Shown here: piece by piece, positions 285-5,034 of the stretch
How positions within the stretch are numbered: position 1 is the first letter of the stretch
Layout of the letters: every line of letters begins with the position of its first letter
DNA from: Candidatus Desantisbacteria bacterium CG1_02_49_89
GTDB taxonomy: Bacteria; Desantisbacteria; UBA1551
Assembly: GCA_001871075.1 (NCBI GenBank)
Contig: MNUP01000108.1
Location: 1 to 5,263 of the forward strand
Length of the DNA: 5,263 nt
Direction: 5' to 3'
Notes under the pieces: generated by a model
Seen by the model: the letters and a program-made list of their open reading frames with translations, nothing else
Databases searched by the model: none
What the model was told of the DNA's origin: nothing
Made by a program: the position numbers and the translations under genes

Positions 285-293
285 GCTGTTTCC

Positions 294-376
294 GTCGTAA
301 GTCGTACGTCATACGTCGTACGTTAAAAACTAAAATACCGTCGGACGTCGTAAGTCGAACGTCGGACGTTAAGAAC
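294..376. repeat. Two-copy heptamer array (GTCGTAC-like), left flank of the four-helix-bundle gene
   Basis: Read on the plus strand, 294-321 is four tandem heptamers (GTCGTAA, GTCGTAC, GTCATAC, GTCGTAC) followed by GTTAAAAAC at 322-330. After a 9-base spacer the pattern recurs: 340-367 is four heptamers (GTCGGAC, GTCGTAA, GTCGAAC, GTCGGAC) followed by GTTAAGAAC at 368-376. The module is therefore duplicated with a 46-base period. The heptamers vary at internal positions while GTC and a final AC (AA in two copies) are kept. The array ends 9 bases before the stop codon of the four-helix-bundle gene and begins 9 bases upstream of the DUF362-like start codon. Confidence 0.9.
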
Positions 377-384
377 TATACTCC

Positions 385-750
385 TTAAAAACTTTCTTTC
401 AGTTTCTTGGTCAGGTTTATTATCATTCTTGAAGTGTGGTTTAATTCTTCGAGGAGGTTCTTTTCGGTTTCTTCCGGAATGTACCCAAAATTCTTAGCAA
501 GGCTTACCTGGGTTTCCAATTCTGCTGCTGAACCTAACGCTATAAACAGAAATTGTTTGTATTCGTTTCTGTGGGACCTGCGAAAACCTTCAGCGATATT
601 TGACGGTATGGATGTGGCAGACCTATTCATCTGCAAGGTGAGATTAAAATTCTCTATCGAAGGAAAACCGCAGGTCAGTTTGTGGACTTCGCCGGCTATC
701 TTCATCCCTTTTTGCCAGATATCCAGATCTCTGTAACTTTTTATTTCCAT
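385..750 (-). CDS. Four helix bundle protein (23S rRNA intervening-sequence / S23 family)
   Basis: The 121-residue product matches the usual family length of about 115-125. Recognisable family landmarks are the N-terminal YRDLDIWQK (6-14), QMNRSATSIPSNIAEG (40-55), the basic segment FRRSHRNEYKQF (56-67), and IALGSAAELETQV (70-82) before a final helical stretch to residue 121. This is the classic pattern of the family found in 23S rRNA intervening sequences and related to the accessory protein Avd of diversity-generating retroelements. Known members form small helical oligomers and may bind nucleic acid; no enzymatic activity is established. No reverse transcriptase or variable repeat is visible nearby, so a retroelement role is not supported here. 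The start at 750 is the only sensible ATG, since the family motif begins at residue 6, but the Shine-Dalgarno is poor (AAAAG just before ATG). The gene sits inside inverted heptamer arrays, which suggests that it belongs to a small cassette. Confidence 0.92.
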   Translation of the reverse strand: MEIKSYRDLDIWQKGMKIAGEVHKLTCGFPSIENFNLTLQMNRSATSIPSNIAEGFRRSHRNEYKQFLFIALGSAAELETQVSLAKNFGYIPEETEKNLLEELNHTSRMIINLTKKLKESF

Positions 751-774
751 CTTTTATGTCCGTTCGATCATTCG

Positions 775-810
775 CGTATGACGTACGACGTAAGACGCTC
801 GACGGTATTT
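775..810. repeat. Heptamer array, right flank (inverted copy)
   Basis: Read on the minus strand from 810: AAATACC (810-804), then GTCGAGC, GTCTTAC, GTCGTAC and GTCATAC down to 776. It is the inverted counterpart of the arrays at 294-376. It lies 25 bases upstream of the start codon of the four-helix-bundle gene, so it occupies the promoter position of that gene. Its outer end runs into the DUF1854 gene: the last two bases of the repeat (809-810) are part of that gene's TAA stop codon (811-809). Confidence 0.85.
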
Positions 811-1309
811 AAAGCACTTTATCGAGTTCTATGAGGGAGCGGTGGGGGAGCCTGGCGTAGTCCGGGATCTCGTAGCGGCATTCTTCTATGTCGGTTATAA
901 GCAGCCTGGTTTTCCCGCGCATCAGTATGTTGTCGTTCCTGCCCCTCACGTAAAACGATTTCCTTCCCCTGTCTGTTTTCGTCTCCCAGTTGTATATGCC
1001 GAACTCTTCCGTTATTTTGTATATCTCCCTTATCACGGGCACAAAATAGCGCAGCTTGATCTCTTTCCTTATGAGCGCCTGCTGGTCAGCGGGAAAATCC
1101 CCGAGGTTATTTATCACCCCGATCTCCTTGTTCTCGATGTTCCTTATTGAAATGAACTTGTCGGGATTCGCCACGGGGAACGAGCATATGGGATAGATCC
1201 TGGGGTGCACGGTCCCGTCCGCCAGGGTCATTTTCAGGACGCCGGTTTCGCTCCTCTCGAATTTCGTGCCTTTGGGCTCAATATTTGTGATGCCTATTAT
1301 CTCTTCCAT
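809..1309 (-). CDS. DUF1854 family protein, partner of the upstream ABC transporter
   Basis: The 166-residue protein fits the DUF1854 family. Recognisable parts are ADGTVHPRIYPICSFP (30-45), the region around ISIRNIENKEIGVI (53-66), YFVPVIREIYKI (88-99), FYVRGRNDNI (119-128), and the C-terminal core RLLITDIEECRYEIPD (135-150). It has no signal peptide or membrane helix and is probably cytoplasmic. The biochemical role of DUF1854 is not known to me. Members are typically encoded next to an ABC exporter of the type found at 1606-3825, and in some proteobacteria the pair is annotated as associated with cyanophycin metabolism. An accessory or regulatory subunit of that transporter is a reasonable inference. 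A good ribosome-binding site, TGAGGG (1318-1313), precedes the ATG by 3 bases. The stop codon overlaps the outer edge of the heptamer repeat at 810, so the cassette abuts the gene exactly without disrupting its conserved part. Confidence 0.9.
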   Translation of the reverse strand: MEEIIGITNIEPKGTKFERSETGVLKMTLADGTVHPRIYPICSFPVANPDKFISIRNIENKEIGVINNLGDFPADQQALIRKEIKLRYFVPVIREIYKITEEFGIYNWETKTDRGRKSFYVRGRNDNILMRGKTRLLITDIEECRYEIPDYARLPHRSLIELDKVL

Positions 1310-4890: not shown

Positions 4891-5034
4891 ACAGGGAACC
4901 CGCCTACGCAGATACTCCTTCAACCTTAGCTTCCCGCTATTCGCGGGAAGGTTACGGATGCTACGGCGGGCAGGCTTACGGGAACTTAAAAAACATTCAG
5001 CCACGGATTTCCACGGATTTAAACTGTGTAAGCT
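4891..5034. repeat. Dispersed repeat, copy B with a strong internal hairpin
   Basis: It starts ACAGGGAACCC (4891-4901), holds GGCGGGCAGGCTTACG (4965-4980, identical to copy A), GGAACTTAAAAA, ATTCAGCCACGGAT, and ends near AAACT at 5034. Its centre carries a perfect 8-base stem CTTCCCGC (4930-4937) / GCGGGAAG (4943-4950) with a 5-base loop. CCCGCC (4899-4904) can pair with GGCGGG (4965-4970) to close a larger imperfect cruciform. It is longer than copy A mainly because of this central hairpin. Confidence 0.78.

Follow-up and report, generated by a model that had tools for sequence, protein, structure and literature searches.

The stretch of DNA analysed here (the window, 5,263 nucleotides) is the entire contig MNUP01000108.1, and its source genome comprises 2.48 Mb in 150 contigs. 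Near its left end lies a gene on the minus strand (385..750) for a four-helix-bundle (4HB) protein of 121 aa, a member of the 23S rRNA IVP / TIGR02436 family (PF05635, E 2.9e-36; TIGR02436, 8.4e-35); the profile matches bear out the original prediction, which had named a four-helix-bundle protein from the letters of the sequence. The nearest solved structure is 2gsc (XCC0516; E 2.7e-20), and the protein gave no match against phage records. The host neighbour, also on the minus strand, is a DUF1854 gene of a cyanophycin-associated family (809..1309; PF08909, 3e-34). A DUF362 gene, also expected here, was matched in the window by none of the searches run, and no rRNA match was found in it; the element adjoins DUF1854, outside any 23S rRNA gene.

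Inverted arrays of a GTC-type heptamer had been predicted around the 4HB gene, and the array scan detected three of them (plus strand, 293-323 and 339-369; minus strand, 775-804) and none in shuffled sequence, where 305 kb gave zero arrays. The outer left array (291..323, plus strand; GTCGTAA GTCGTAC GTCATAC GTCGTAC GT), which has a scan score of 45.7 within the bounds 293-323, forms a direct repeat (D1, 83%) with the inner left array (339..369, plus strand; GTCGGAC GTCGTAA GTCGAAC GTCGGAC GT), and between the two runs an A+T-rich spacer (324..338) with the cap AAATAC(C) at its end. The inner left array is the element's downstream arm relative to the gene; the upstream arm is the right array (775..804, minus strand; GTCGAGC GTCTTAC GTCGTAC GTCATAC G on the gene strand), whose 30 bases are found identically at G000:C107 (L002). 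By sequence comparison, the stretch at 370..384 (TTAAGAACTATAC...) appears to resemble the loop start of gene-less hairpins elsewhere in the genome (TTAAGAATTTAT in L037), and 757..774 on the minus strand (GTCCGTTCGATCATTCG) may be a degenerate continuation of the right array, the 7-bp register being kept as judged by eye.

The pairing of the ends is as first described: positions 333-343 (AAATACCGTCG) are the exact reverse complement of 800-810, positions 301-315 (GTCGTACGTCATACG) are that of 775-789, and longer inverted arms (333-368 against 775-810) extend over 36 nt at 81%. The predicted right end also stands, since the cap GGTATTT (804..810, minus strand) shares two bases with the DUF1854 stop codon (809-811, minus strand). 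The left end, placed at 333, is refined: the additional array lies outside it, and the unit is better drawn at about 291-810. In the predicted RNA fold of 291-812 the arms are paired, at -141 kcal/mol (a raw energy, without a shuffle control). The gene-bearing copy codes solely for the 4HB protein, in agreement with the claim that the unit holds no transposase; no recombinase-like gene was seen within the element, and no reverse transcriptase gene was found in the window.

The GTC-type pattern is widely dispersed in the window's genome (224 matches, against 6 for the reversed control pattern), and the matches listed include arrays at 63 or more distinct places, spread over 44 contigs. The pattern is absent from the only phylum relative compared and gives just a few chance-like matches in 39 further, distant genomes. 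The same relative lacks DUF1854, and hence offers no locus orthologous to that of the window. In most facing pairs at the sampled loci, the arrays are separated by 11-14 nt with an A+T-rich loop, and arrays in the same direction are mostly joined by 6 nt (AAATAC). Only in the window unit does a facing pair enclose a gap as long as a gene (405 nt). The caps AAATACC/GGTATTT are found on gene-less hairpins as well (L024, L041, L007 and L035) and, in the same genome, on other heptamer families (AAATACa in L012, GGTATTT in L014). Loop, cap and arm order are common to the sampled gene-less copies, and the two arms of a copy differ in heptamer order. As distinct arm orders recur together with a common loop, the GTC copies look related by descent rather than like independently slipped repeats. 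Arms are less similar within hairpins than between hairpins, a comparison that is ill-posed in that the arms differ in heptamer order and copies lie in both orientations. The original prediction had held that arrays as frequent away from 4HB genes as near them would speak against it; GTCGTAC arrays do occur at the at least 63 gene-less places, which look like gene-less hairpin copies, and the decisive comparison is therefore one across heptamers.

Such a comparison can begin within the same genome, where nearly all of the other PF05635 genes are flanked by arrays of different 7- or 8-mers: the words AGTGGTC, GTCATGG, GCTCATA, GTGTAAC, AAATTGT and GGTTAAA, and 8-mers at L011 and L016. A second heptamer, GCTCATR, is likewise dispersed (25 matches, against 0 for the control). 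Two copies, L016 and L018, are cut or broken, the latter being interrupted, and L015 has no clear array pattern around its 4HB gene. At L011 the array just downstream of the gene is direct and the inverted partner lies further on. Between these two arrays, at L011:1938-2112, are the inverted ends AGTGTGGTGTC / GACACCACACT, and the stretch has the look of a further element inserted among the arrays.

Across genomes, PF05635 is present in 36 of 98, nearly all of other phyla. For 80 4HB loci we scored the best 28-nt window of each flank, with a threshold of at least 21 matches at a given lag. At lag 7 the share that passes is 33% both upstream and downstream; the corresponding values are 18% and 11% at lag 8 and 19% and 14% at lag 14, against 0-3% at other lags, in gene interiors and in distant stretches. 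The result was reproduced in 80 named loci, collected by a different search and ranging from Xanthomonas and Flavobacterium through Clostridia and candidate phyla to ANME-1 archaea: 32% of upstream and 38% of downstream flanks pass, as compared with 0% within genes and 4% at a distance. Flanks of control families, taken from the same genomes, seldom pass: ParE in 1 of 60 flanks and Y1 transposases in 0 of 58, the sampled Y1 flanks being inverted but without heptamers. The two flanks of a 4HB gene are inverted partners of one another in many cases, exceeding the 99th percentile of mismatched pairs at 45 of 77 loci, with the gene's own partner as the best inverted match at 43 of 77 (29 and 33 of 77 in the replicate). 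Judged across heptamers, inverted 7/8-mer flanks are thus far commoner for 4HB genes than for control genes, in support of the original prediction. By this strict criterion about 40-60% of sampled 4HB genes have no clear inverted partner; these may be decayed or domesticated, or their array escaped detection. Location in rRNA was found for 0 of the 19 array-poor loci tested. In one genome, G009, there are nineteen short PF05635 matches, many of them in divergent close pairs (for example C7:104028-104225(-) / C7:104402-104554(+)), which sets it apart from the other genomes.

The arrays obey common rules. Of 89 upstream arrays, 83 have more G than C on the coding strand (p 2e-18), and of 88 downstream arrays, 79 have more C than G (p 4e-15); the commonest number of units is four, with some arrays running to dozens, and arrays of period 7 outnumber those of period 8 by about 4:1. 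A very long upstream array, at L150:1030-1460 of Anabaena 90, has more than 50 units, a mix of GGTGACA and GGGAACA, and is a strong candidate for a recent expansion. The heptamer also follows the protein: heptamer similarity rises with 4HB protein similarity, and in pairs from different genomes only, with pairs that have a detected shared neighbouring gene removed, 9 of the 22 pairs with a protein similarity of at least 0.6 have matching arrays, against 0.5-0.8% of those below 0.4. As some pairs share a locus and so are not independent, the 9 of 22 is a strong count rather than a p-value. L013 and L130, from different genomes, both carry AGCTCAT.

These rules bear on two rival explanations. 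The first casts the 4HB protein as a regulator that binds RNA or DNA, controls its own gene through the flanking arrays and has its targets marked by the dispersed ones. Co-variation between protein and heptamer is equally expected of a regulator and its sites, the arrays are intergenic, and heptamer arrays in Beggiatoaceae have been proposed as translational signals (PMC4679880); yet a regulon would hardly lead one to expect that the two arrays of a gene are inverted partners of each other, that broken copies persist (as in the interrupted L018), that several 4HB/heptamer pairs lie side by side in one genome, or that 4HB genes sit in unrelated operons at sites that are empty in orthologous loci. 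We regard it as improbable as a general account, though some array-rich loci could in part have been selected as expression or RNA-processing signals. The second rival is passive: arrays would form through slippage during replication and template switching at hairpins, and the 4HB genes would have been captured between them. Arrays do expand, clearly so at the more than 50 units of L150, and a duplicated stretch with a captured gene end is seen at L152; what slippage leaves unexplained is the capture of 4HB but not control genes, the strand rule and the protein-heptamer co-variation, and the loop and cap common to gene-less copies, and we consider this reading highly improbable.

Filled and empty sites can be compared directly in cyanobacterial plasmids, where elements separate cas6 from cas4 (two species), cas10 from cmr3, and ribonucleotide reductase genes from each other. 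The order cas10-4HB-cmr3 of Picosynechococcus 7003 corresponds to an empty cas10-cmr3 spacer in Picosynechococcus 7002, and the 4HB gene between the ribonucleotide reductase genes of Nostoc to an empty spacer in Calothrix NIES-4105. At the cas6-cas4 spot, which is possibly an insertion hot spot, Anabaena 90 has cas6-4HB-cas4, Dolichospermum (99.3% identical) has a different hairpin insert (L156:735-1000, with GTAGGTTGGGTTG ... CAACCCAACCTAC-type ends), and Nostoc UHCC 0302 has a short gap only. Orthologous sites that are empty or differently filled, which the original prediction had called for, therefore exist. At filled sites the element takes the place of a short spacer and abuts the stop and start codons of its neighbours, as in the window, and no clean target duplication was seen in the empty/filled pairs. 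In Xanthomonas, Luteimonas and Dokdonella, a 4HB element lies between accB and accC (identified from flanking translations) and its arrays are of the GGGAATC type, an outcome predicted beforehand for Xanthomonas; a Solimonas relative has a GGGAATC-type word at an unrelated locus.

We hypothesize, and consider it probable, that the unit at about 291-810 is a copy of a widespread minimal mobile element, that its 4HB protein forms a ring that recognises its own heptamer arrays, and that the gene-less hairpins are derivatives. This agrees with the small mobile element of the original prediction, mobility being deduced from comparison among genomes. Such an element would consist of one 4HB gene with an array of some four tandem 7-mers, or at times 8-mers, on each side; the two arrays, being inverted, could pair to form a long stem that leaves the gene in its loop. 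The 4HB protein is most likely a ring, 2gsc (XCC0516) being a homopentameric one (PMC4990558), and may bind its own array with about one heptamer per subunit, the predicted target being single-stranded or stem DNA or RNA. If each subunit of the ring reads roughly one 7-nt word, both the co-variation and the usual array of about four tandem units would be accounted for. The 4HB protein would thereby let full and gene-less hairpin copies of its heptamer enter intergenic spacers, and the enzyme that places them would presumably act in trans and belong to the host's replication/repair or be an HUH (Y1) transposase. Once transcribed, the stem would lend itself to cleavage by RNase III, as in the 23S IVS, and a stem removable in this way would make insertion inside operons tolerable.

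If an enzyme acts in trans, the 4HB protein might be a passenger or accessory of hairpins moved by an HUH transposase of the Y1, REP-associated type. There is precedent for mobilisation in trans in REP hairpins, and Y1_Tnp is found in 30 of the 36 4HB-bearing genomes as compared with 30 of the 62 others (p 6e-4), an association that may reflect genome plasticity only. Y1 is absent, however, from six 4HB-bearing genomes (including G094, with its ten 4HB matches), the heptamers missing from the sampled Y1 flanks count against it, and co-variation would be unexpected of a mere passenger; this explanation has a real but small chance of being correct. A partnership with a reverse transcriptase, like that of Avd in diversity-generating retroelements, is scarcely credible: Avd is a four-helix-bundle ring too, but reverse transcriptases are about as frequent in genomes with 4HB genes (11 of 36) as in those without (17 of 62; p 0.82), and none was detected in the 4HB-rich genomes G061, G094 and G054. 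Dependence on reverse transcriptase was accordingly rejected for want of co-occurrence with 4HB in the 98 genomes. The likeness to Avd lies in the ring-forming four-helix-bundle protein, and the Avd system differs from the locus in the window, where no reverse transcriptase, template or variable repeat stands beside the 4HB gene.

Among known systems, the mobile element proposed here comes closest to the intervening sequences (IVS) of 23S rRNA genes (S23/IVP; Leptospira, Coxiella), which share with it PF05635, a length of about 400-500 bp, a single ORF, complementary ends and the absence of a transposase; the link drawn in the original prediction thus holds for both the protein family and the inverted ends. 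The mobility of these IVS has been proposed before, and removal of their stem from transcripts by RNase III has been demonstrated (PMC4990558). The window-type element differs in lying outside rRNA genes, in its lineage-matched tandem 7-mer ends and in its many dispersed gene-less copies. With REPIN/RAYT systems and MITEs it has in common small dispersed hairpins alongside a separate full-length copy or protein gene, as well as many gene-less copies with common ends in one genome; those systems have a related autonomous element with a transposase, whereas the gene-bearing copy here has a 4HB protein only, with no HUH or DDE transposase, and the word varies by protein lineage. A third resemblance is to heptanucleotide repeats. 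In the sections of the two studies used here, GGGAATC (Xanthomonas), GGGGA(C/T)T (Nostoc), cyanobacterial STRR and TAACTGA (Beggiatoaceae) are, like the 4HB arrays, intergenic tandem arrays of 7 bp (PMC4692102, PMC4679880). The Xanthomonas repeats are described there as abundant, dispersed and unexplained in role, with four units preferred and often convergent (about 70 convergent pairs per genome), and such repeats as generally not tied to mobile elements (PMC4692102). The 7-bp units, the mode of four and the convergent pairs are also those of the 4HB arrays, and the same sections of PMC4692102 and PMC4679880 report no link to a 4HB gene.

A wider reading, which we offer tentatively as plausible rather than probable, is that there exists a class of transposase-free elements in which a ring-forming 4HB protein reads a lineage-specific 7-nt word per subunit and spreads itself together with gene-less hairpins; it would be the source of many bacterial and archaeal heptanucleotide repeats, and 23S IVS would be copies that landed in rRNA. 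What would make it new is that the heptamer ends match the protein and that no recombinase is present; if 23S IVS are already counted as the same kind, the element is a variant of them. No link between 4HB genes and heptamers was found in open-access PMC papers, which is weak evidence of absence. If the reading is true, a commonly annotated protein (four helix bundle protein, S23) gains a concrete role with a sequence code, the unexplained heptanucleotide repeats of cyanobacteria and Xanthomonas are offered an origin, and a kind of mobile element without recognisable transposase, integrase or reverse transcriptase is added to those known. Matched protein-heptamer pairs make the specificity directly testable.

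Other repeats were also observed in the window's genome. A further 7-bp family, (ACTTTTG)n, occurs at L041:2954-2992, away from any 4HB gene seen. A dispersed repeat with GGCGGGCAGGCTTACG...GAACTTA is present in the window at 1405-1445 and 4950-4995 and elsewhere at L015:3000-3030 and L028:1580-1600, and its L028 variant abuts a GTC array directly.
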